Assembly (NCBI RefSeq): GCF_040954645.1
Contig: NC_092806.1
Span: forward strand, 30,591,644-30,655,643
DNA length: 64,000 bases
Source: Diabrotica undecimpunctata
Lineage: Eukaryota; Arthropoda; Insecta; Coleoptera; Chrysomelidae
Reading direction: 5' to 3'
Shown: in pieces, positions 8,635-64,000 of the stretch
How the letters are laid out: every line of letters begins with the position of its first letter
Position numbering within the stretch: the stretch's first letter is position 1
The notes under the pieces: generated by a model
Databases searched by the model: none
Told to the model about the DNA's origin: nothing
Seen by the model: only the letters and a program-made list of their open reading frames with translations
Made by a program: the position numbers and the translations under genes

Positions 8635-9290
8635 TTATTTTTGATGTTTTTCCAGTAAATAACAATAAATGTTGCTCAATTTATCTATGTCAGACTTTTT
8701 CTTTATGCAAGACGTACTAGATAAGTAACACATTTCCAAGAAAACACGTTTTGAATGTTTTTTTTTTGTCAAAATACAGGAATCTTCGAAATTAAACTCG
8801 TGTTTCAAAGTTGATGCGTGTTCTGTAAGTGCACATGCATTTATTTTATTGGTTTTTATGTCACTACGATGTGAGATCACCCTACTGTGGAAATTACGAG
8901 ATGATTCTCCGATGTATACGTTGTTACGATTTGTACACGGTATAGAATAACCAACACTTGACTCCTGTATTGTGAAGGGATCCTTTGTTTCTGTGTATAA
9001 CTTAGACACCGTTTTCACATTTCTTGTTGTAATTTTTAAGCCATTAACATTTTTGAAAATGTTAATTAGCTTAGGAGTCAGAACTGGAATGTAGGGTAAG
9101 GAACCAAAAGTTATTTTAGATGGTATTACTGATGTGTTGTATGTCAATGTCAATTGTCGGACCTCATTATTATGAAAATTTTGTTTGTCAGAAAATTGCA
9201 AAGGAAAAGAAGAACCGAAAATGAGTTTATTTAAAAGTCCCATGGGATAGGAGTTCTCTAGTAGTATATATCTGGATGTTTTCATAAGAA
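8635..9290 (-). pseudogene. Penelope-like element: RT thumb and GIY-YIG endonuclease
   Basis: The minus-strand frame ends at 8635. From about 9280 it reads SRYILLENSYPMGLLNKLIFG and later LPYIPVLTPKLINIFK, the RT thumb region. It then gives VGYSIPC....NVYIGESSRNFHSR with R and E residues further on (about 8960-8640), the GIY-YIG endonuclease of Penelope-like elements. The endonuclease end is intact to its stop. The RT palm that should precede it is missing, because at about 9290-9300 the DNA switches to an inverted copy. The open frame continues upstream to 9678 only by chance. Confidence 0.8.
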
Positions 9291-9299
9291 TTTTAACAT

Positions 9300-9960
9300 T
9301 CATAATTGACTCTAACACATTTTTGTTCAATTGTAATTGGTAATAATGGTTTTTTAAACAAATCTTTGGCACTCCAATGGGCAGCAAAATATCCCCCATA
9401 CTATGTAACTTTGTTTTGGATGAACTTGTAAAGAAAAGATACCGTTTCACATACCTTTTATTAAGCGATATGTAGATGATTTGATTTTCTCGGAGCCTGA
9501 AAATAAAGTAACTGATGTTTTTAAACACCTTTAACGCCCAATGTGAATACCTAAAGTTTACGGTTGAGAGGGAGGCTGATAGTATGATTCCTTTTTTGGA
9601 TATGTTTATCCATCGTGACAGTGATGGCTTGCTAAGGACGGAGTGATATCGTAAGCCTTGTTTTAGTAACCATTTCATAAATTTTCATTCTCAACATCCA
9701 TCTAAGATGAAAACAAATTTGGTTTTGGCCTTAAAAACTAGGGTTACTAACTTGTCGCACATCGAGTTCAGGGACAAGGGACTAAAAAGTTGAGATCTAT
9801 ACTACTAGAGAACTCCTATCCCATAGGGCTTTTAAATAAACTCATTTTCGGTTCTCCTTTTCCTTCGTAATTTTCTGACAAACAAATTTTTCATAATAAT
9901 GAGGTCCGACAATTAACATTGACATACAACACATCAGTAATACCATCCAAAAAAAACTTT
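9300..9960 (+). pseudogene. Penelope-like element RT palm, opposite orientation
   Basis: The plus strand encodes FFKQIFGTPMGSKISPILCN (GTPMGS at 9368-9385). After a frameshift comes FIKRYVDDLIFSEPENK, with the catalytic YVDD at 9469-9480. Then follow FTVEREADSMIPFLDMFIHR and SNHFINFHSQHPSKMK. These are RT motifs 4-7 and the thumb of a Penelope-like RT. At least three frameshifts or stops break it. Its 5' end abuts the minus-strand copy at about 9295, giving a head-to-head arrangement. Confidence 0.75.
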
Positions 9961-9987
9961 TGGTTTTTTACCCTACATTCCACGTTT

Positions 9988-10395
9988 CATAAATTTTCAT
10001 TCTCAATATCTATCTAAGATGAAAACAAATTTGGTTTTGGCCTTAAAAACTAGGGTTACCAACTTGTCGCACATCGAGTTCAGGAACAAGGGACTAAAAA
10101 AGTTGAGATCTATATTACTAGAGAACTCCCATTCCATAGGGCTTTTAAATAAACTCATTTTCGGTTCTCCTTTTCCTTCGTAATTTTCTGACAAACAAAT
10201 TTTTCATAATAATGAGGTTCGACAATTAACATTGACATACAACACATCAGTAATACCATCTAAAAAAACTTTTGGTCTCTTACCCTACATTCCAGTTCTG
10301 ACACCTAAGCTAATTAACATTTTCAAAAATGGTAATGGCTTAAAAATTACAACTAGGAAAGGAATGTGAAAACGGTATCTAAGTTATACACCTTT
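9988..10395 (+). pseudogene. Tandem second copy of Penelope RT thumb
   Basis: The sequence from cataaattttcattctcaa (9988) repeats 9676-9960 almost base for base. It then continues further into LPYIPVLTPKLINIFK and KITTRK, matching the minus-strand copy at about 9000-9080. Partial tandem copies are characteristic of Penelope elements (pseudo-LTRs). This copy stops at about 10395, before the endonuclease. Confidence 0.75.
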
Positions 10396-11973: not shown

Positions 11974-12738
11974 TGGCGATCCTACCTTTCGAATAAGGAG
12001 TTTTCTGATTCGCAGAAACAAATCAAAAATGCCAACCACATACTGGAAATTTAAATGGAAATTTACATAATAGATGATATATGGAACCCACTGTGGAAAA
12101 TGCATCAGCAGGTAAGGAAATTCCCGCCAAATTCCGAACCAAACCCGCCAGGAGTCCCGCGACGGAATTCCAGCTCCTGATAATGGACAATAAATGGGAA
12201 AAATGGATAAATGGACAAATGTGAATTATCAAAAACAATATGTGAAATATATTATGTAAGTAAATTTTATTTTTTATCCCTTATGTAAATTATGCAGTCT
12301 AACAGAAATTATTACTTAGTATTTGAATATAAGAATTTAACTAATTCAAGTTCAGAATGTTGAGTACACAATTTTTATGGCTTTTAAAAGTACAGAATAT
12401 AATTTATTTTTAAATTATCGCTAAATAACTGTTTATATATCAAATTCTATTTATTTTTATTTCTATTTTTTAATGAAACAAATATGTGACATATAATTTT
12501 ATTTGCTTAAGGTATAGTTTTAAAAATATTTATATTTGACCATGAAAATATACTGTGACTAAGTCGGAAAATATTAAATTACGACATGAATTTGCTTAAA
12601 TGACAAATTCTTCAATTAATATAGACGAAGAAATCGGATATGACTTTTTATTTTACTATTTAGCTATAATAAATTAGGATATTTAGAATTATTGTTACAT
12701 TTATAAGGAAGAAAAACGAATTTAAAAGACAATTGACC

Positions 12739-13413
12739 ATGGCGTCAGAAAAATTTTCATTATGTTGGAACAATTTCCACGAAAATATGAGTTCAGGAAT
12801 AAATTCATTATGGAAAAGTCAAGATTTTGTAGACGTAACGCTTTCAGCACAAGGAAAATGCATAAAAGCGCATAAAATGGTTCTTTCGGTTTGTAGCCCA
12901 TATTTTAAAGAAATTTTTATGTCAAATCCCTGTCAACATCCTATAGTAATTTTGACAAACGTGACTTACGAAGCACTAAGAGACTTACTACAATTTATAT
13001 ACCATGGAGAAGTACAAATTAGACAAGAAAATTTAAATACCTTCATTGAAACGGCCGAATCATTGCAAATACAAGGACTCACTGGAGATAGAAAAGTTTT
13101 AAATGATAATAACATTATGGAAAATTCGGATAAAGAATATACTCAAAATGTAAAAGATTTTAAACCAGTTTCTCTACCTGTGACAAAGAAACAACAACCT
13201 ATAAAGAAGGAAGAATATAGCGACACAGAGCAAGAAATAAGTATGGCTCTTACAACAAACGAATTTTTAAATATCGCAAGCAAAGTGTTACCCAGCGAGT
13301 TTGATGGAAAAGCAGGTAAACTGCAGTCATTTTTAGATGCACTAGAACTCCTTGAGAAAATAGCGATAGGACACGAGGAGACAGCGACAACATTAATAAT
13401 AATTGCTAAATAA
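12739..13413 (+). CDS. BTB/POZ domain fused to gag capsid (5' part)
   Basis: 224 codons from ATG 12739. Residues about 5-117 are a BTB domain of the arthropod TTK/BAB/Lola class, with motifs FSLCWNNFHENM, FVDVTLSAQGK, KAHKMVLSVCSPYF, NPCQHPIVIL, FIYHGEV and AESLQIQGL. Known BTB domains of this class dimerise and recruit chromatin proteins. A charged linker (118-165) follows, then a Gypsy-like gag capsid start, PSEFDGKAGKLQSFLDALELL. The frame ends at a TAA where gag continues in another frame from about 13414. There is no intron, as expected of a reverse-transcribed capture. The frame lies wholly inside the LTRs. An upstream TTG at 12733 is in frame, but ATG is the better start. Confidence 0.85.
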   Translation: MASEKFSLCWNNFHENMSSGINSLWKSQDFVDVTLSAQGKCIKAHKMVLSVCSPYFKEIFMSNPCQHPIVILTNVTYEALRDLLQFIYHGEVQIRQENLNTFIETAESLQIQGLTGDRKVLNDNNIMENSDKEYTQNVKDFKPVSLPVTKKQQPIKKEEYSDTEQEISMALTTNEFLNIASKVLPSEFDGKAGKLQSFLDALELLEKIAIGHEETATTLIIIAK

Positions 13414-14009
13414 TAATAGCTAAATTGGCGAAGAAAAGACAAGGACATAAGGATGCAGAGGTCTATGCATCTGAAGTTGAAGAATTAGCGGAACAGCTAA
13501 AAGTTGCATACGTAGCGGAAGGAATGTCATTGGAACTAGCGAAAAAATACACAACAGAGGCAGAAGTAGCTACAATGAAACGCAACGTCAACACAGAAAA
13601 AGCTAAATTCATTTTGGAAGCATGTAACTTTTCAACCACACAAGAGGTAATGTACAAATTTTTATCGATAGACGAGACAGAAGATAGCACACAAGGAAAA
13701 GTATTAAATTACATGAACAAATACGATTTTGATATGAGAAAAGAAAGTAAGAATACAATATATGCATATTATAAAAATAAATTCGAAGAAAGAAAACAAT
13801 ATAGAAACAAATATTATATAAATATAAGTGAATATGAAAGACATAATACGAGGATATATCGTAATAGAAACAGAGGAGATTGGCAATCACAACGAAGAAC
13901 AAAGAATAATCAATGGACACAGGTGAGATGCCACAGAAATAGAGGCACAGCAAGAGCATATTACGCATCGCATGCGAATACGAATACAGTGACAGAAGTA
14001 GATTTTTGA
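13414..14009 (+). pseudogene. gag, continued in a shifted frame
   Basis: The frame reads LAKKRQGHKDAEVYASEVEEL, continues with EGMSLELAKKYTTEAEVAT, and ends in an Arg/Asn-rich tail (RNRNRGDWQSQRRTKNN). It belongs to the same gag as 12739-13413, offset by one base. The expected capsid segment between 'LIIIAK' and 'KKRQG' (about 30-40 residues in relatives) seems deleted. A basic tail replaces any clear CCHC knuckle. This could be a broken frame or, less likely, a programmed shift. Confidence 0.65.
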
Positions 14010-26314: not shown

Positions 26315-26526
26315 TATATTGTAACTCGATTTCATCATTAGTTTCCATAATGTTTGTGGGCGGCTATATCTGATAGTATATCTTTACAGTTTTTAATAAA
26401 TCTTCATCAACATTAAGTTATGGATTCCATTTTTTAACCAATATATAAATACAATTTTTGATTATTTGCGAAACAGTTCTTTTTATCCCTAATAGTGTGT
26501 CTTTCTAGAAATGTAGCGACAGAAAA

Positions 26527-27818
26527 TTAAGAAATGTAGCGACTGTAAACTCATTAGTTTAATGAGCCGTGCCGTTAAAATACTGTTGCATATTCTTCTA
26601 AATCGAATTAACAACAAGTGCGAAGAAATAATTAGTCAAGAGCAGTTCGGGTTCCGGAGATGCCTTGGAACTAGAGAAGCACTATTTTCTATGCAAACAC
26701 TCCTTCAACGATGTTGGGAGGTAAGAAAACCCGTATATATGTGCTTCATTGATTTTGAAAAGGCATTTGATCGCGTTCAGCATACCAGACTAATTACCGC
26801 CTTGCAGAGCATCCAACTAGATGAGAAAGACATCAAACTTATTGCCAAACTTTACTGGAACCAAACAGCCATTATTAATACCAACAACAGAGAATCAAAG
26901 CCAATCAGTATTGAACGAGGCGTAAGACAAGGCTGTATACTATCTCCCACCCTCTTTAACGTGTATTCTGAGAATCTATTTAGGGAAGCTTTAAAAGATC
27001 AAAAAGGAATTATCATAGAAGGAGAAATAATTAACAACATACGGTACGCCGACGATACTGTGATTCTAGCTAAAAACATCGACGATCTGCAGGAGCTAAT
27101 CAATAGAGTTGACATGGAATGCACAAATTGGGGACTGTCGATAAATATCGATAAAACTAAATACATGGTGACTAGTAAAGTGGATATCGGCGCAACCCAA
27201 CTGATATTAAACCAACAACCGCTGCAGAGAGTTCAGAGATTCAAATACCTTGGATGTTGGATTACCCAAAATCTAGATCCATCATTCGAACTTCGATGTA
27301 GAATTGAACAGGCAAGAAACTCATTTCAAAAATTCAAGCCTCTATTATCCAATAACTCATTAAATTTGGAAATCCGTGAAAAGTTTACAAGATGTTACGT
27401 GTGGTCTGTACTTTTGTATGGATGTGAAACTTGGACTTTAAACGCCGATATCCTAAATAAAATCGAGGCGTTTGAGATGTGGTTGTATCGAAGGATACTA
27501 AAAATTCCATGGACTAGCAGAACCAGAAACGAAGAAGTTCTTCGAAGAATGGGACATCAACGAACTCTATTAAATATTATTAAGAGGCGTAAACTAGAAT
27601 ATCTTGGACATATAATCAGAGGACCAAGATATGAGTTCCTTCGGCTAATTCTCAACGGTAAAATCGAAGGAAAGAAATGGATAGGACGGAAGAAACTCTC
27701 TTGGTTGAGGAATTTGCGGCAGTGGACAGGTTTGACAGCGGATCAATTGCTACACGTAGCGCAAGACCGAGATCGGTATAAAAATATTATAAGCATGGTA
27801 GTCGCCGACGTTCCGTAG
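26527..27818 (+). CDS. LINE (APE-type, family A) reverse transcriptase, open frame
   Basis: At least 418 uninterrupted codons. The block order is FIDFEKAFDRVQH, GVRQGCILSPTLFNVYSE, INNIRYADDTVILAKN (catalytic YADD intact), GLSINIDKTKYM, RFKYLGCWI, LYGCETWTLN, MWLYRRILKIPW and RRKLEYLGHIIRG. It ends VVADVP, with ggcactctaagaagaag just after. The endonuclease half is absent, so the copy is 5'-truncated (RT similarity starts near 26527). It is the least damaged of seven family-A pieces in the window. Without its 5' half it cannot retrotranspose by itself. Confidence 0.85.
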
Positions 27819-30418: not shown

Positions 30419-32885
30419 ACCTTCAGTAGTCGCTAGGAATTTTTGAAAATTAGTAGTCGCGCACGGTCGAAACGACCGTTTGGTCTTTTACTTCTTAGTT
30501 TGTGTTAATAAAATTATTTGGAACCAGTTTAAGTAAAACACGATTTTATTAAGGTTTAATAAGTAGAGTAACATATTACAAAATAATATAAAAAGTAAAC
30601 TAATGTTAAAAACACTGGACAGAACATTAAAAAAACTATTTTCTACTCCGATAAAAAAAGGAAACTTTTAGTTAATCCGAATAAGTTCAGTTTGGCACTC
30701 TTCGCATACTGCACGTGTATGTTATCTGCATAACTTTTTACATTTACAGCAGGAAACAGTCGTTTTCCGGTTCTTTTTACGGTCGCAAAAGTAGCATCTA
30801 CCATGTACTCCTTCATTCGTTGGAGTGCCGTCTGTGTTAGGAATATTACATATGGCCTTAATACGTAACTCCAGATCTCTATTTAAATTGTCTACTGTTG
30901 CTCGGACCCGTAGATGTTAGTGTCCATAAGAGAAAATGCTAAATGCTTCAAAAATTTTCTTCTAAGCATCTTATTATCAGCAAGGTTGTTACTTGCATGA
31001 ATCACTAACGAATTAATGCCTGCGATATTTAGTATGGTGTTAAAAATTACCATGGGCCAACGTCTTGTTTTTCGCGAAACATCATAAGAGGAGCATAGCT
31101 GATCAACGACGTCAACACTGCCTTTTGTTTTATTATAAAACGTCAGAATTTCTGGTTTATAATGTTCAAATGTTTCTCTATCTATAGCGTCGTCATCATG
31201 TAGACTTAAAACAAGCAATACAACTTTCTTCTTTTTGGGGATATACGACACTAAGGTACATGTATCGCTAAAGGCGAACATACTTGATTTTAGAGGACGA
31301 GATCCTTGAAGTAATTCAGGGAGCCGTTCCCTTTTGTTCTTTCTAATGGTCCCCACAACAGTCAATCCAAATTCTTTTTTTAAAACATCTATTAGAGGAA
31401 TGCTAATGAACCAATTATCTAGAGTAATGTTGCGCCCAGAATTCTTTATTGGCGCACACATTCTCTTTACAACTTCTTTCGGGGAATTGTCTACAGTAAA
31501 TGGGCCATCTCGTTGACGACCCACATAAACCTCCATATTTATGGTATAATACATTTCAGCATCACATTAACTAAAAATTGTGAGCCCATATTTTGAGGGT
31601 TTGCTTGGAATATATTGTATCCAAGGGCAATTCCCTAAAAATCCAGGAAGCATTTCATCGCATGTTAAATTTTGCGAAGAGTTATATCCCGATTTACACT
31701 TTTCTACGAATTTGTCAAAAAATACTCGGATGGCGGCCATCTTATCCAGTCTCCTACGTTCTTCACGATCGACCTTATCATCAAATCTAATGCATCTTAG
31801 AAGAAACCGAAATCGGGATAAGGACATGACTAGTCTAAATATTTCGATACCTTCGCCATTAGTTTGCCAGATATCTTCTGTATTCAGGTGATGGGCTTTA
31901 TATGTCCCTGCCAAATATAAAAAGCCTATAAGAGCGCGAATTTCAGATGGGTTTGTAAGCTTTGCATCCCACTCCCTAGAGAAATTGCTTGCTATACTTT
32001 CAATGTATTTATTAGTGAATTATGTAAATCATGTCCTCATCAATGAAATAACTCCATATTTCATAAATGTCTTTTAACTTTTTCGTAAATCTATTAGGCC
32101 CAGGTGATTGTTTCACTAAATTAGGCTTGCTCATACGTACCCTTTTGTTTTTTCTTTGATGCTTTCTCCACACTGTACCATCTTTTCCCCTAAAAACACT
32201 TTCTTCTTGTACATTATTCAGTAAAACTTCTCCTATTTCCTCTAAATCCTGTTCTTGTTCGCTTTCCGAATCTTTCTTCTTTACTTCATTCTCGTCATCG
32301 TCGTCGTCATATTCTATATCAAGCGGTTCTTCTTCCATGAGGGCTTGAAGTCTCCTTTGTTCCTTCTCATGGTCCATTCTAAAAATAAAGCCAAACAAGT
32401 TATATATAAAAGTTTGCTGTAGCTTAAAATTTAAAAAAATTAATATTTGATTCTCAATAATAGAACAAAGAAAATTATGAAATATCGTAATAGTAATTTG
32501 CTGCAAAGTAATTTAAAATTTGATGACTAATTACATAGTAAAAGAAAGAGAGGTATATTCAAAAGGTTACTAAACAATAAGACAAAAGTATAATAGTATA
32601 TGTATTATTTAAAAAAACTAGCGTTTATACATACCTTAAGGTGATAAGGAACACAATAAAACGATTTATAAAAACTTTTTAGCTGACTAGACGCGCGCGG
32701 AAATTATGACCTTTGCGCTGTAACTCCTAATCAACAAACCTCCCGCTCCTGATTTAGTACTGAGGCTCCTTGTATCGAATGAGTAAGCTACTGAAGGCCG
32801 TGGTTGCCAAATGTAATTTTTTTCCGAAATATTAGCAATTTTTAATACGTGCGGTCTTGTTGACCATGTAGCGACTAGTTAAGGG
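30419..32885 (-). mobile_element. piggyBac-like element, end to end
   Basis: TTAA target duplications at 30415-30418 and 32886-32889 bracket imperfect terminal inverted repeats (accttcagtagtcgctagg at left; complement of the right end cccttaactagtcgctacat). A second similar block lies inside the left end (tagtagtcgcgcacggtc). The 2,467-bp length is that of a full piggyBac element. One broken transposase gene is inside, on the minus strand. Confidence 0.9.
30668..32377 (-). pseudogene. piggyBac-type transposase, near full length
   Basis: The start ATG is at 32377 (MDHEKEQRRLQALMEEE), followed by a long acidic N-terminus. Then come RALIGFLYLAGTYK, LLRCIRFDDK, CDEMLPGF and PSKYGLTIF. CDAEMYYTINMEVYVG, NITLDNWF and GSVDVVDQL carry the three Asp of the DDD core, all present. 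RKTRRWPM follows, then a Cys-rich tail (CYFC...CCKC...CEEC). Damage is light: a frameshift near 32025, an in-frame stop at 31567-31569 just before the first Asp, and a stop in the Cys-rich tail. It would cut and paste DNA at TTAA if intact. Confidence 0.88.
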
Positions 32886-48230: not shown

Positions 48231-49165
48231 CCATCAGATGGATTTTTATTCTGTCTTTGGCTACTGTTTATAAAGGCTGTAGGAATTTTATAGCTTATTC
48301 TAATGGATCATCAACCTTTGCCAATTTATCCGGAATTAACTCATTAAGTTGTGGCGCATCCGCCTCCACGTCACATTGTTGCCGAGATTTGTGATGCGAG
48401 TCTCTCTTTACTTGTGCTTCTCACGCTTGCGCGCTCTCTTGTTCCGCCTTTTTTCTTTTCTTTCGCTATTTGTTTCTTAATTTGTTTAATTCCGACGGTT
48501 CAAGGTTTTCTGTATTTAATGTCTTTTACACGCTCTCGTTTTTGAACGGCTCATCGAACAGATGGAGATACACTTCAATGGCACATTTGGCTGCTTTAAA
48601 ATAAAACGGATGACCCCGAAGCACGTCTTCTAACCGTAATAGACCTAAGTAAGATCTTAGCGTCATTTTTCGCATACATGTATGGAAGTCGAACTGATCT
48701 CTGATTTCGGAAAAATTCCTATCTATTTCGTGACATTTTTTTAACGCATCTCCGAATTTTCCTAGTCTCTGGTATGCCAGCGCACACTCGGTCTGAAACG
48801 ATATGCACACTGAAACGCCTTCCCGCGTAAATTTTCCCCACGTTTCTTCGGCTTCTTTCACGTAACACGTACGTAACATATATTTCACGCATTTCGAGTT
48901 TGGCTGTATCTAAGACTTGAGCCTCGTCTAACCACTTGAGGGCCTCTTGAGGATCACCGGTATGCTTATATATTCTACCCTTGACAACAAAAGTTCAATT
49001 AAGGTGGGGGTGTGTTCAATAGCGGCATCAATATAAGTTAATTCCTTTTCAGTCTGTTTAAAAAGTCAAAATGTTGCACCAAATTGTAGTAAACCCACAA
49101 GAGAGCACTTGCCGGTTCTTTGGGTCCGTTATTAACTTCTAATTCACTGTATTTCCCCACAGTTT
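48225..49165 (-). pseudogene. Naa15: Retrocopied fragment of Naa15 (NatA auxiliary subunit)
   Basis: On the minus strand, successive frames give [125 protein letters not shown] and IHLMAFEKY. This is a long collinear stretch of the TPR protein that anchors the N-terminal acetyltransferase NatA to ribosomes. It is intronless, with frameshifts and an internal deletion after GVSV. Both ends are partial and there is no poly(A) tail. It lies antisense in a channel intron. Confidence 0.88.
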
Positions 49166-58736: not shown

Positions 58737-59052
58737 TATTATTCATTGGTGTACGAAAGTGTTTTGGCAATTTAATGAAACCCATAGTCAATGATATATA
58801 TTTTGGCAGTATTAAGTAGAATATATTTGTTTATAACTTTATATTTCAGTCAATTAGTTTGTCGCATCGAGTTTACACTAGTCCATATGTATAAAATATA
58901 TTTTTTCTTTGATGGTGTCACTATACTCTATGATACTCATTTGTGTTTCCTTTAAAAATCTTCTTGTCTACGCTACAGACCAGAGGTTGGCAAGTAATTT
59001 TATGTGGGATCCGGATACTAGAAGAAAATTTGAACAAGGTCCAGAAATAAAA

Positions 59053-59064
59053 ACAAATGATAAC
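59053..59064. repeat. 12-bp direct repeat, left of the array
   Basis: acaaatgataac, repeated exactly at 62529-62540. The array fills the space between the two copies to the base, as expected of a target-site duplication. Confidence 0.88.
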
Positions 59065-59310
59065 TCGGTAAGATAGTTTCGAAACAAATTCAGATTTCTG
59101 CTTTAATCTGGAGCCTTCTAAAAATTGCAAGGCATGGCCAAACGATGATAAAGATGTTAATAGAGACATGGGGAATCTAAAATTTGCATTCCACGACATG
59201 TCTATTCATCTAAGCAGAAATCCTAACGAATTTGTTTCTCGTACTCATACAGAGTAGATCCGAAGAAAAATGAAAAAGACAGAAAAGATTTTATTTCACG
59301 TTCAAAGCGT

Positions 59311-59370
59311 CTATGTACCTATTGATACGTATTTCGCTTTAATAAAGCTCATCAGAATAGTTATTCATAG
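59311..59370 (-). ncRNA. Type I hammerhead ribozyme, unit F1
   Basis: Minus-strand sense. Stem I is CUAUG/CAUAG and CUAUU/AAUAG around an AAUAA/GUA internal loop, with core CUGAUGA. Stem II is GCUUU-AUU-AAAGC, then GAAA. Stem III is AUAC/GUAU, self-complementary with almost no loop. Cleavage is predicted after AUC, between 59324 and 59323. All invariant core bases of the hammerhead family are present. Stem III this short usually works best as a dimer of adjacent units. Confidence 0.9.
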
Positions 59371-59711
59371 CCGTTCTTAACGTGAAAAATAAAATTCTCT
59401 GTCTTATTAGAAGTAACAATAACATGACTTCGTTATGGACGCAATAGCGACATCTGATAGAAAAATCGGTAAGATAGTTTCGAAACAAATTCAGATTTCT
59501 GCTTTAATCTGGAGCCTTCTAAAAATTGCAAGGCATGGCCAAACGATGATAAAGATGTTAATAGAGACATGGGGAATCTAAAATTTGCATTCCACGACAT
59601 GTCTATTCATCTAAGCAGAAATCCTAACGAATTTGTTTCTCGTACTCATACAGAGTAGATCCGAAGAAAAATGAAAAAGACAGAAAAGATTTTATTTCAC
59701 GTTCAAAGCGT

Positions 59712-59771
59712 CTATGTACCTATTGATACGTATTTCGCTTTAATAAAGCTCATCAGAATAGTTATTCATAG
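59712..59771 (-). ncRNA. Type I hammerhead ribozyme, unit F2
   Basis: Identical to unit F1, 401 bp further on. The predicted cut lies after the AUC at 59725. RNA spanning F1 and F2 would release a 401-nt monomer. Confidence 0.9.
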
Positions 59772-60112
59772 CCGTTCTTAACGTGAAAAATAAAATTCTC
59801 TGTCTTATTAGAAGTAACAATAACATGACTTCGTTATGGACGCAATAGCGACATCTGATAGAAAAATCGGTAAGATAGTTTCGAAACAAATTCAGATTTC
59901 TGCTTTAATCTGGAGCCTTCTAAAAATTGCAAGGCATGGCCAAACGATGATAAAGATGTTAATAGAGACATGGGGAATCTAAAATTTGCATTCCACGACA
60001 TGTCTATTCATCTAAGCAGAAATCCTAACGAATTTGTTTCTCGTACTCATACAGAGTAGATCCGAAGAAAAATGAAAAAGACAGAAAAGATTTTATTTCA
60101 CGTTCAAAGCGT

Positions 60113-60172
60113 CTATGTACCTATTGATACGTATTTCGCTTTAATAAAGCTCATCAGAATAGTTATTCATAG
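60113..60172 (-). ncRNA. Type I hammerhead ribozyme, unit F3
   Basis: Identical to unit F1; predicted cut after the AUC at 60126. Confidence 0.9.
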
Positions 60173-60513
60173 CCGTTCTTAACGTGAAAAATAAAATTCT
60201 CTGTCTTATTAGAAGTAACAATAACATGACTTCGTTATGGACGCAATAGCGACATCTGATAGAAAAATCGGTAAGATAGTTTCGAAACAAATTCAGATTT
60301 CTGCTTTAATCTGGAGCCTTCTAAAAATTGCAAGGCATGGCCAAACGATGATAAAGATGTTAATAGAGACATGGGGAATCTAAAATTTGCATTCCACGAC
60401 ATGTCTATTCATCTAAGCAGAAATCCTAACGAATTTGTTTCTCGTACTCATACAGAGTAGATCCGAAGAAAAATGAAAAAGACAGAAAAGATTTTATTTC
60501 ACGTTCAAAGCGT

Positions 60514-60573
60514 CTATGTACCTATTGATACGTATTTCGCTTTAATAAAGCTCATCAGAATAGTTATTCATAG
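60514..60573 (-). ncRNA. Type I hammerhead ribozyme, unit F4
   Basis: Identical to unit F1; predicted cut after the AUC at 60527. Confidence 0.9.
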
Positions 60574-60914
60574 CCGTTCTTAACGTGAAAAATAAAATTC
60601 TCTGTCTTATTAGAAGTAACAATAACATGACTTCGTTATGGACGCAATAGCGACATCTGATAGAAAAATCGGTAAGATAGTTTCGAAACAAATTCAGATT
60701 TCTGCTTTAATCTGGAGCCTTCTAAAAATTGCAAGGCATGGCCAAACGATGATAAAGATGTTAATAGAGACATGGGGAATCTAAAATTTGCATTCCACGA
60801 CATGTCTATTCATCTAAGCAGAAATCCTAACGAATTTGTTTCTCGTACTCATACAGAGTAGATCCGAAGAAAAATGAAAAAGACAGAAAAGATTTTATTT
60901 CACGTTCAAAGCGT

Positions 60915-60957
60915 CTATGTACCTATTGATACGTATTTCGCTTTAATAAAGCTCATC
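60915..60957 (-). pseudogene. Hammerhead ribozyme broken at the inversion point
   Basis: The fifth unit keeps the 3' stem I strand, stem III, GAAA, stem II and UGAUGA. The array inverts exactly before the first C of CUGAUGA. The core C and the 5' strand of stem I are lost, so it cannot cleave itself. Confidence 0.85.
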
Positions 60958-61221
60958 AAATTCGTTAGGATTTCTGCTTAGATGAATAGACATGTCGTGG
61001 AATGCAAATTTTAGATTCCCCATGTCTCTATTAACATCTTTATCATCGTTTGGCCATGCCTTGCAATTTTTAGAAGGCTCCAGATTAAAGCAGAAATCTG
61101 AATTTGTTTCGAAACTATCTTACCGATTTTTCTATCAGATGTCGCTATTGCGTCCATAACGAAGTCATGTTATTGTTACTTCTAATAAGACAGAGAATTT
61201 TATTTTTCACGTTAAGAACGG

Positions 61222-61281
61222 CTATGAATAACTATTCTGATGAGCTTTATTAAAGCGAAATACGTATCAATAGGTACATAG
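61222..61281 (+). ncRNA. Type I hammerhead ribozyme, unit R1
   Basis: Plus-strand sense. CUAUG 61222-61226, CUAUU 61232-61236, CUGAUGA 61237-61243, stem II 61244-61256, GAAA 61257-61260, palindromic stem III 61260-61267. The cleavage-site C is 61268, then AAUAG 61269-61273 and CAUAG 61277-61281. Outside the core, CACGUU/AACGUG and longer A/U-rich pairings extend stem I. Confidence 0.9.
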
Positions 61282-61622
61282 ACGCTTTGAACGTGAAATA
61301 AAATCTTTTCTGTCTTTTTCATTTTTCTTCGGATCTACTCTGTATGAGTACGAGAAACAAATTCGTTAGGATTTCTGCTTAGATGAATAGACATGTCGTG
61401 GAATGCAAATTTTAGATTCCCCATGTCTCTATTAACATCTTTATCATCGTTTGGCCATGCCTTGCAATTTTTAGAAGGCTCCAGATTAAAGCAGAAATCT
61501 GAATTTGTTTCGAAACTATCTTACCGATTTTTCTATCAGATGTCGCTATTGCGTCCATAACGAAGTCATGTTATTGTTACTTCTAATAAGACAGAGAATT
61601 TTATTTTTCACGTTAAGAACGG

Positions 61623-61682
61623 CTATGAATAACTATTCTGATGAGCTTTATTAAAGCGAAATACGTATCAATAGGTACATAG
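61623..61682 (+). ncRNA. Type I hammerhead ribozyme, unit R2
   Basis: Identical to R1; predicted cleavage after C 61669. With R1 this defines a 401-nt monomer from 61269 to 61669. Confidence 0.9.
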
Positions 61683-62023
61683 ACGCTTTGAACGTGAAAT
61701 AAAATCTTTTCTGTCTTTTTCATTTTTCTTCGGATCTACTCTGTATGAGTACGAGAAACAAATTCGTTAGGATTTCTGCTTAGATGAATAGACATGTCGT
61801 GGAATGCAAATTTTAGATTCCCCATGTCTCTATTAACATCTTTATCATCGTTTGGCCATGCCTTGCAATTTTTAGAAGGCTCCAGATTAAAGCAGAAATC
61901 TGAATTTGTTTCGAAACTATCTTACCGATTTTTCTATCAGATGTCGCTATTGCGTCCATAACGAAGTCATGTTATTGTTACTTCTAATAAGACAGAGAAT
62001 TTTATTTTTCACGTTAAGAACGG

Positions 62024-62083
62024 CTATGAATAACTATTCTGATGAGCTTTATTAAAGCGAAATACGTATCAATAGGTACATAG
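62024..62083 (+). ncRNA. Type I hammerhead ribozyme, unit R3
   Basis: Identical to R1; predicted cleavage after C 62070. Confidence 0.9.
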
Positions 62084-62424
62084 ACGCTTTGAACGTGAAA
62101 TAAAATCTTTTCTGTCTTTTTCATTTTTCTTCGGATCTACTCTGTATGAGTACGAGAAACAAATTCGTTAGGATTTCTGCTTAGATGAATAGACATGTCG
62201 TGGAATGCAAATTTTAGATTCCCCATGTCTCTATTAACATCTTTATCATCGTTTGGCCATGCCTTGCAATTTTTAGAAGGCTCCAGATTAAAGCAGAAAT
62301 CTGAATTTGTTTCGAAACTATCTTACCGATTTTTCTATCAGATGTCGCTATTGCGTCCATAACGAAGTCATGTTATTGTTACTTCTAATAAGACAGAGAA
62401 TTTTATTTTTCACGTTAAGAACGG

Positions 62425-62484
62425 CTATGAATAACTATTCTGATGAGCTTTATTAAAGCGAAATACGTATCAATAGGTACATAG
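62425..62484 (+). ncRNA. Type I hammerhead ribozyme, unit R4
   Basis: Identical to R1; predicted cleavage after C 62471. The array ends 44 bp later. Confidence 0.9.
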
Positions 62485-62528
62485 ACGCTTTGAACGTGAA
62501 ATAAAATCTTTTCTGTCTTTTTCATTTT

Positions 62529-62540
62529 ACAAATGATAAC
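62529..62540. repeat. 12-bp direct repeat, right of the array
   Basis: Exact copy of 59053-59064. Removing the array and one copy rejoins plausible hAT 3' untranslated sequence. Confidence 0.88.
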
Positions 62541-62599: not shown

Positions 62600-64000
62600 A
62601 AATTAATGCGAAAAATTGCACCGACGGTCTTAAATTAGTTGTTTGTGGTCTGGTTCTCGAGTCGAACAACAAATTCGAAGTATATCTTCGAGGTTGGCGT
62701 CCGTTAATCGGGAGCGATATTTGCTTTCCAAAAAATTTATTTTTGAGAAAGACGTTTTGCACAATTTTCATATTTTGCTGGCACATGTTTGGCCTAAAAT
62801 TCTTCGGTGAATATTAATTTATAAACGTGCAAGGACAAATCTTCTTGCAATTCAATATTCTTCATTTGAAGTATTGCTTTTGACAGATTAAACAGCTTAG
62901 CAGCTACATCTGTCCATTCTACCGCTGCATCAACTTCAAATGGTAATTTTAGAAATGAAGATAATTTGCTTACCTGTGCAAAGTCTTGGAATCTTGAAGC
63001 AAATCCGTTCCTAAGATCGCCCAGAAATTTTACGAACACTGCAATGTCTTCTTCGGAGTACTCCTTATTTTTATTATATTCAAGAATAGTTGGAAAATAA
63101 ATGAATTCTTGTTGTGCAATATCTTTTTCAAAGTTAACCAGCTTACGATGAAAAGCAGACACGCTTTGTATCAGATCATATACTAATTTTTCATTTCCTT
63201 GTAACTTTGTGTTAAGCGCATTGAAATATTTTAAAATATCTTTTAGAAAAGTCACAACCAGCACGTTGCGCCTGTTTGTTATACACTCAAAATGTGCTCT
63301 GACTCCCTGCGTATCTATATTTTATAAGAAGGAGACCACATGTTCTTTTATTAGCCAGAAACGTTCAATAACTTAACCTTTACTTAACCAACGAGCATTA
63401 TTATGTTGTAGTAAATCAGAATATTCTGAATCACATTCAGAAAGAAACTCCTTGAAATGTCGATGCTAAAGAGCAGAATGTGATCTCATAAAGTTAATTA
63501 ACTTCACTAAACTGTCCATGACTTTTTTACGTCTAGCACTAAGTTTTCCACAAAGGGCTGCCTGGTGTATTATGCACTGAAATGTTATTAAATTTGAATT
63601 TTTATCCCTGATCCTCTTTACTACACCTTTTTTTGCCAATCATTGCTGGTGCCCCATCAGTAGAAAGCGAAATCATTTTATTATAACTGATGTTAGATTT
63701 AGAAATTAATTCATCAATAACCTTGAATAAATCTTCTCCTCGAGTGTTACCTTTCAGCGGCAATATTGCTAGCAACTCTTCCCTAAAAATCTGACACTCA
63801 ATGTCAAGAAATCTTAAAAAAACAGACATTTGTTCATCATTAACAATGTCACATGATTCGTCAAGTGCTATGGCGTAGCAAAGTGCCTTTTGCAAAAGAT
63901 TAAAAAGACAGTTTTTAATATCCGCAGCTAAAATTTCCGTTCTTCGTGTATTACTTCTCAGCTCAGTATCAGAAAATGGTTTTTGGTGTTTATTAAGTAT
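62600..64000 (-). pseudogene. hAT transposase (ZBED/GTF2IRD2-like), partial
   Basis: Running from the right edge on the minus strand: KHQKPFSDTELRSNTRR, YAIALDESCDIVNDEQMSVF (first catalytic Asp), ISLSTDGAPAMIGKK (second Asp), FQCIIHQAALCGKLSARRK, LLQHNNARWLSKG, VLVVTFLKDILKYFNALN and, after frameshifts, ESKYRSRLTDANLEDILRI and RRCNFSH, the hAT dimerisation end. It keeps the layout of domesticated-looking ZBED/GTF2IRD2-type transposases. There are frameshifts or stops near 63620, 63330 and 62790. The N-terminal BED finger would lie beyond 64000. Confidence 0.85.

Follow-up and report, generated by a model that had tools for sequence, protein, structure and literature searches.

Animal retrozymes are described in the main text of PMC7229834 as transcribed tandem repeats with units of about 170-400 nucleotides (nt), and insects are named there among the hosts. 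Their hammerhead ribozymes excise monomers, which are ligated to circles and become templates for the reverse transcriptase (RT) of another element. That text leaves open which enzyme moves animal retrozymes and calls Penelope-like elements (PLEs) a strong candidate only; it also cites hammerhead-encoding repeats in newts, schistosomes and cave crickets. Here we describe an array of a 401-bp unit with hammerhead cores on both strands, found at positions 59065 to 62528 of a 64,000-nt stretch of the beetle Diabrotica undecimpunctata (NCBI RefSeq assembly GCF_040954645.1, contig NC_092806.1, positions 30,591,644 to 30,655,643 of the forward strand; this whole stretch is called the window). We are highly confident that the element is an animal non-long terminal repeat (non-LTR) retrozyme, and it very probably arrived by retrotransposition as one insertion. 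The evidence comes from this one locus in a 64-kb window.

The beetle array resembles animal retrozymes in its tandem, non-coding 401-bp unit and in a type I hammerhead whose helix III can form 2 bp and a tetraloop, but 401 bp lies at the top of the size range described for that family (PMC7229834). All copies described in the main text of the same paper are tandem ones, an inverted double array is not among them, and the word "inverted" occurs in the paper zero times. The array is also repetitive animal DNA that encodes a hammerhead, like the newt, schistosome and cave cricket repeats, but unlike them it is a discrete insertion with a duplication. With PLEs, as passages of PMC3846280 and PMC11167929 describe them, it shares a 5'-to-5' inverted layout, an AT-rich target, tandem copies and an association with hammerheads. 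The duplications given for rotifer Penelope copies are 8-10 bp or none, compared to 12 bp in the beetle array, and Penelope junctions hold palindromes, whereas none was noticed by eye at the beetle junction (PMC3846280, in its account of these copies). PLEs encode an RT and a GIY-YIG endonuclease, while the beetle unit encodes nothing long (at most 55 residues). The beetle unit can only be a passenger and is not a PLE itself. Human L1 5' inversions, which arise by twin priming, have their 3' ends outward, microhomology at the inner junction and a target-site duplication. The beetle array shares those traits and differs in its multimer arms, its lack of poly(A) and its non-coding unit.

Layout of the array and its flanking repeat

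The 401-bp unit forms two opposed tandem arms that overlap at the centre. The features of the layout are listed below, with monomer position 1 defined as the first base 3' of the predicted cut.

59065 to 60958, minus-strand sense: left arm, 4.7 units, 1894 nt, monomer positions 371 to 259
60957 to 62528, plus-strand sense: right arm, 3.9 units, 1572 nt, monomer positions 90 to 57
60957 to 60958, no strand: head-to-head junction, CA common to both arms (2-nt microhomology)
60838 to 60957, no strand: hairpin loop, 120 nt
59053 to 59064, no strand: probable target-site duplication, left copy, ACAAATGATAAC
62529 to 62540, no strand: probable target-site duplication, right copy, ACAAATGATAAC

Successive units are mismatch-free within each arm, with zero divergence in both. 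In both arms the RNA-5' side faces the centre and the RNA-3' side faces the target, which gives a 5'-to-5' (head-to-head) layout, and the outer ends fall at unlike monomer positions, 57 and 259. The palindrome is a perfect 1571-bp hairpin in which 59267-60837 pairs with 60958-62528, and the left arm extends 202 bp beyond the part that pairs with the right arm. An earlier, sequence-only reading of this DNA had described a palindromic array running both ways and a hairpin of about 1.5 kb, and both descriptions hold. The array, its cores, their orientation, the duplication and the junction are all seen directly in the DNA.

The same reading called the array a satellite, a classification that does not fit. 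Directly outside each arm lies one copy of a perfect 12-bp direct repeat, ACAAATGATAAC; the left copy ends at 59064, the right copy begins at 62529, and the repeat has no other occurrence in the window on either strand. When 2,000,000 pairs of positions were drawn at random from the window, 17 shared a 12-mer. Since the duplication is present at both ends, it points to one insertion and not to a satellite; the sequence indicates that the 3.46-kb palindrome most likely entered as a single insertion with a 12-bp target-site duplication. An ordinary satellite, enlarged in situ by unequal exchange and inverted internally, would also have tandem units, and the main text of PMC7229834 names newt satellite DNA as the source of the first hammerhead reported from an animal. 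We consider this origin very improbable given the perfect 12-bp duplication at the ends, the absence of target sequence between the arms, the 2-nt overlap at the junction and the zero divergence of the units.

Perfect palindromes are a known form of artefact, and perfect identity can stem from polishing. An assembly or library artefact, either a fold-back chimera or a collapsed repeat, could produce such a picture, but we find it very unlikely. A fold-back read would mirror the flanks, whereas the flanks of the array differ from each other and carry a direct repeat, which argues against this type of error, and the window contains zero Ns. The exact number of units may still be wrong through assembly.

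The hammerhead cores and the 401-nt unit

The 32-nt string from CTGATGA through the cut-site C occurs eight times, four times per strand, with 401-bp spacing in each arm. The cores are as follows.

61237 to 61268, plus strand: hammerhead core, CUGAUGA / stem II / GAAA / helix III / cut-site C, predicted cut after 61268
61638 to 61669, plus strand: hammerhead core, descriptor match
62039 to 62070, plus strand: hammerhead core, descriptor match
62440 to 62471, plus strand: hammerhead core, descriptor match
60527 to 60558, minus strand: hammerhead core, descriptor match
60126 to 60157, minus strand: hammerhead core, descriptor match
59725 to 59756, minus strand: hammerhead core, descriptor match
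59324 to 59355, minus strand: hammerhead core, descriptor match

Each core is built of CUGAUGA, a 5-bp stem II with a 3-nt loop, GAAA, helix III and AU before the cut-site C, and the inner stem I is 5 bp long (CUAUU/AAUAG). Helix III can be a 2-bp stem with an ACGU tetraloop, or an 8-nt palindrome, AUACGUAU, able to pair between two units. One axolotl hammerhead has a 2-bp helix III with a tetraloop cap and is likened to invertebrate ones, and dimeric action is described in the axolotl (main text of PMC7229834). The junction truncates a ninth core, which lies innermost in the left arm; this arm starts with TGATGAG and lacks the initial C as well as the 5' strand of stem I.

The descriptor used for the matches required an inner stem I of at least 4 bp, CUGANGA, a stem II of at least 4 bp, GAAA, a helix III of at least 2 bp and UH. 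Its only matches in the window are these eight cores, all of which have the full conserved core (8/8), and 300 dinucleotide-shuffled windows gave 5 distinct matches, or about 0.017 expected per window. Since the eight cores are copies of one motif, they are one independent observation. The eight hammerhead copies at 401-bp spacing, four per strand, had been counted in the sequence-only reading, and the exact string and descriptor counts bear this out. With the letters of stem II left open, the core pattern had 0 matches in viral contigs and 0 in bacterial and archaeal contigs; such contigs are not expected to hold insect DNA, and the zero matches are therefore no sign of rarity.

Self-cleavage by the cores is likely, and each strand could release three complete monomers. 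The following complete monomer was used to characterize the unit.

61269 to 61669, plus strand: complete monomer, as self-cleavage would release it, 401 nt, 33.7% G+C content (GC)

The longest ATG-started open reading frame (ORF) in the circle has 55 residues in the sense direction and 48 in the antisense direction, so the unit is non-coding. The GC of the monomer is 33.7% compared to 32.9% for the window, and since the window is similarly low, the low GC of the unit says little. The circle is predicted to fold at -98.3 kcal/mol compared to -73.1 +/- 5.2 for 200 shuffles, none of which was as low (z score -4.8). Compared to what is expected of a retrozyme, the array has tandem units of 401 bp (expected about 150-450 bp), GC below 45-50%, no coding capacity, a 12-bp duplication (expected more than 4 bp where one is present) and, by prediction, a self-paired circle. 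A retrozyme is further expected to show tertiary contacts between loops 1 and 2 of its hammerhead, to be expressed as linear and circular monomers, and to occur in many genomic copies alongside PLEs that carry minimal hammerheads. Animal retrozymes, which the sequence-only reading had named in passing, are the best-fitting known family by size, low GC, non-coding and tandem units, helix III, long duplication and self-paired circle.

Several results speak against the hammerhead and the retrozyme assignment. With Rfam, nothing was found at an expectation value (E) up to 1 in the 7 kb searched, and nothing reached the gathering cut-off in the whole window. When a 141-nt stretch was searched at E up to 10, the best hammerhead match was to Hammerhead_3, the type III model, at 18.5 bits (E 0.095) compared to a curated cut-off of 48.5. 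Five matches were found in all, every one of them below threshold; the others were RAGATH-1-hammerhead (14.2 bits, E 4), two microRNA families (19.4 and 13.1 bits) and one long non-coding RNA (2.5 bits). Because Rfam lists the best match per clan, the scores shown exclude the type I model's own. A covariance-model search was the check proposed in the sequence-only reading, which took the lack of a match as a refutation; this is partly the outcome, as hammerhead models match only below threshold.

The folding results are also divided. The hammerhead fold, imposed on the core as a constraint, has a 3-nt loop II and a stem I interrupted by an internal loop; it lay 3.3 kcal/mol above the energy minimum with 35- or 60-nt flanks and 7.9 kcal/mol above it with 20-nt flanks. 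With the hammerhead fold held and the flanks shuffled (plain shuffles, not dinucleotide-preserving), as good a fold appeared in 1/500 at 35 nt and 0/500 at 60 nt. At 20 nt, 121/500 shuffles were as good, and the extended stem I is thus unsupported by the inner 20 nt. The competing fold contains this outer pairing too, which therefore supports a long hairpin round the core, not the hammerhead as such. In addition, the reverse strand of the unit is equally self-paired (z score -5.0), and the window holds no second retrozyme copy, as blastn matches of the unit were at chance level only (E 1.8 or worse).

A possible route of insertion

We think it fairly probable that the array is one non-LTR retrozyme insertion that PLE-type machinery copied into a cut target by reverse transcription, and the same measured confidence applies to the involvement of PLE machinery. 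A more detailed model, in which both target ends prime synthesis on a circle, is the leading one but is offered tentatively, since as a whole we regard it as doubtful. In this model, type I hammerheads would cut 401-nt units from multimeric transcripts, and the units would be ligated to circles. An enzyme would make a 12-nt staggered cut in the target, and each 3' target end would prime complementary DNA (cDNA) on the retrozyme RNA. The cDNA would run round the circle more than once, which would produce tandem arms of 4.7 and 3.9 units, each with the RNA-3' side facing the target and the RNA-5' side facing the centre. The ends of both cDNAs would then be joined through the CA microhomology, and repair of the stagger would yield the 12-bp duplication. 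Here we infer the cleavage, the circularity, a PLE as the enzyme and priming at two ends over the folding back of a single cDNA.

The outward 3' sides, multimer arms, identity of the units, junction microhomology and duplication all fit this two-ended circle model, and the 5'-to-5' orientation at the centre is what priming at two target ends demands. In the experiments described in PMC11167929, both strands of the target were cut and extended by a purified PLE protein, which prefers AT-rich DNA and an ATT motif. If the target was cut with a 3' overhang, the top-strand cut in the beetle would be AAC^ATTT. Head-to-head is called the most frequent layout of inverted Penelope copies in a rotifer, and 8-10 bp duplications are given for several copies (PMC3846280, where it treats these copies).

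Some points speak against this route of insertion. Some rotifer Penelope copies lack a duplication, as PMC3846280 also describes. The unlike ends of the arms, at monomer positions 57 and 259, are not predicted by the model, because the PLE protein studied in PMC11167929 showed no strand difference in its start site. Hammerhead cleavage is unneeded for PLE insertion in vitro in those data. Finally, identical units are equally expected from recent DNA-level copying or from snap-back.

Snap-back accounts for the end positions better than the two-ended model does, since it calls for a start site at just one of the outer ends, in keeping with their unlike positions. In this variant of the insertion step, retrozyme RNA would have templated a single first-strand cDNA, the left arm; the 3' end of this cDNA would have folded back on CA/TG to prime synthesis of the right arm, and the right arm would then have been connected to the second target end. 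The right arm lies wholly within the copyable left arm, as seen from the perfect 1571 bp, the 120-nt loop and the additional 202 bp of the left arm, and the relevant part of PMC3846280 proposes self-priming to explain the inverted repeats of Penelope. Snap-back would have to be primed over just 2 bp, with no palindrome noticed at the junction in the stretches inspected by eye, unlike the Penelope cases, and an extra step is required to capture the right target end. A head-to-head product of self-priming would also require an antisense template, by the reasoning in that part of PMC3846280. On balance, we rate snap-back as possible and rather unlikely.

Another possible variant of the same retrotransposition has a linear template, a long multimeric transcript of an existing array and not a circle, and ordinary twin priming of the human L1 type. 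Read-through transcription is compatible with arms of 4.7 and 3.9 units, and the in vitro independence of PLE insertion from hammerhead cleavage (PMC11167929, same experiments) would suit it as well. Such a transcript would need at least 8.6 uncleaved, fully identical units if both arms came from one molecule, and we judge a linear template to be unlikely.

Surroundings of the array and meaning of the finding

One further element in the window bears on the proposed PLE machinery.

8635 to 10391, both strands: decayed, apparently Penelope-like element, head-to-head inverted, with a 313-bp tandem duplication (9673-10294) in its right half

This remnant lies about 50 kb from the retrozyme array and is the sole such remnant found by tblastn in the window. 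The single match of the protein search was a D. virgifera protein, with about 52% identity over 158 residues. On the minus strand (9285 down to 8845) the remnant corresponds to residues 139-296 of that protein, on the plus strand (9377-10357) to residues 1-163 and then 102-236, and its inverted halves match at 92%. From its sequence, it looks like a Penelope-like insertion with the same head-to-head layout as the retrozyme array and an apparently older age. Several points lessen its bearing on the machinery. The PLE-like name comes from the combination of RT and GIY-YIG at sub-cut-off Pfam scores: in the D. virgifera protein these matches are just below or below the cut-offs, and the frame of the remnant itself, which is decayed and the only example, has a weak GIY-YIG match only (E 0.066). 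Motif scans also found no hammerhead in the remnant. The 313-bp tandem at 9673-10294 was considered as a second retrozyme and rejected, as it overlaps the PLE-like coding matches and has no hammerhead in the scans.

Next to the array, a broken DUF4371-like fragment lies on the minus strand at 62600-64000 (E 2.3e-6, 28.1 bits compared to the Pfam cut-off of 32.1). A CAGAGGTTGGCAA motif is located at 58981, 84 bp left of the array, and we tentatively take it to resemble hAT ends. The window yielded no second copy of this CAGAGGTTGGCAA end. The array may have landed within the 3' end of a hAT-type transposon. A location beside or within a DNA transposon, the setting given in the sequence-only reading, is likely, but the sub-cut-off fragment and the presumed end motif do not settle it.

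Other features of the window are more distant from the array. One of them, the BTB gene, points to a Diabrotica-like leaf beetle, in line with the insect named in the sequence-only reading.

12673 to 14009: BTB-domain ORF and an overlapping ORF (BTB gene 12736-13410), the gene with 90% identity to a D. balteata protein at 98% query coverage and the next matches at 68% or less, among the best 120 of 773 matches
26517 to 27818: long RT open frame (RVT_1, 433 aa)
30892 to 32019, minus strand: transposase with DDE_Tnp_1_7 in two adjoining open frames, presumably of the piggyBac type
48526 to 48909: open frame with a NatA auxiliary subunit match (PF12569), probably a host-gene exon

The sequence-only reading held a two-way array in an insect DNA transposon to be unusual. 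For retrozymes, the two-way layout was not found described in the literature searched, but it is called the most frequent layout of inverted copies in the rotifer Penelope data of PMC3846280. No description of a head-to-head, duplication-flanked retrozyme was found in the literature searched, which consisted of open-licence papers, mostly as listings. Among the papers listed, PMC3846280 contains the term "head-to-head" but not "hammerhead ribozyme", and one retrozyme paper, PMC11722881, uses "inverted repeat" six times. The retrozyme family is known, insects included, and the new part is the head-to-head, duplication-flanked form; that this form was not described before is a weak claim. Head-to-head multimer arrays with a duplication are conceivably the normal product of retrozyme movement, made by a PLE enzyme through rolling-circle reverse transcription of a hammerhead circular RNA, primed at both target ends, and a signature that identifies PLE machinery, although we would put this forward as a tentative idea that may well prove wrong.

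If read through, the locus would make a perfect 1.57-kb double-stranded RNA hairpin, and the sequence makes a role as a source of small interfering RNA possible. That the two-way array has been kept for such a function is highly improbable. A read-through transcript would indeed fold into the perfect 1571-bp hairpin, but the zero divergence points to an insert so young that selection would not yet be visible, and the sense arm of the transcript would be cut by its own hammerheads, if these are active.

The value of the locus lies in its state of preservation: with its target ends, its junction and its unmutated units all retained, the insertion offers a snapshot of the integration reaction. 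Should head-to-head, duplication-flanked arrays prove common in Diabrotica and its relatives, retrozymes would be tied to PLE integration, and two-ended priming templated by a circle would become testable.

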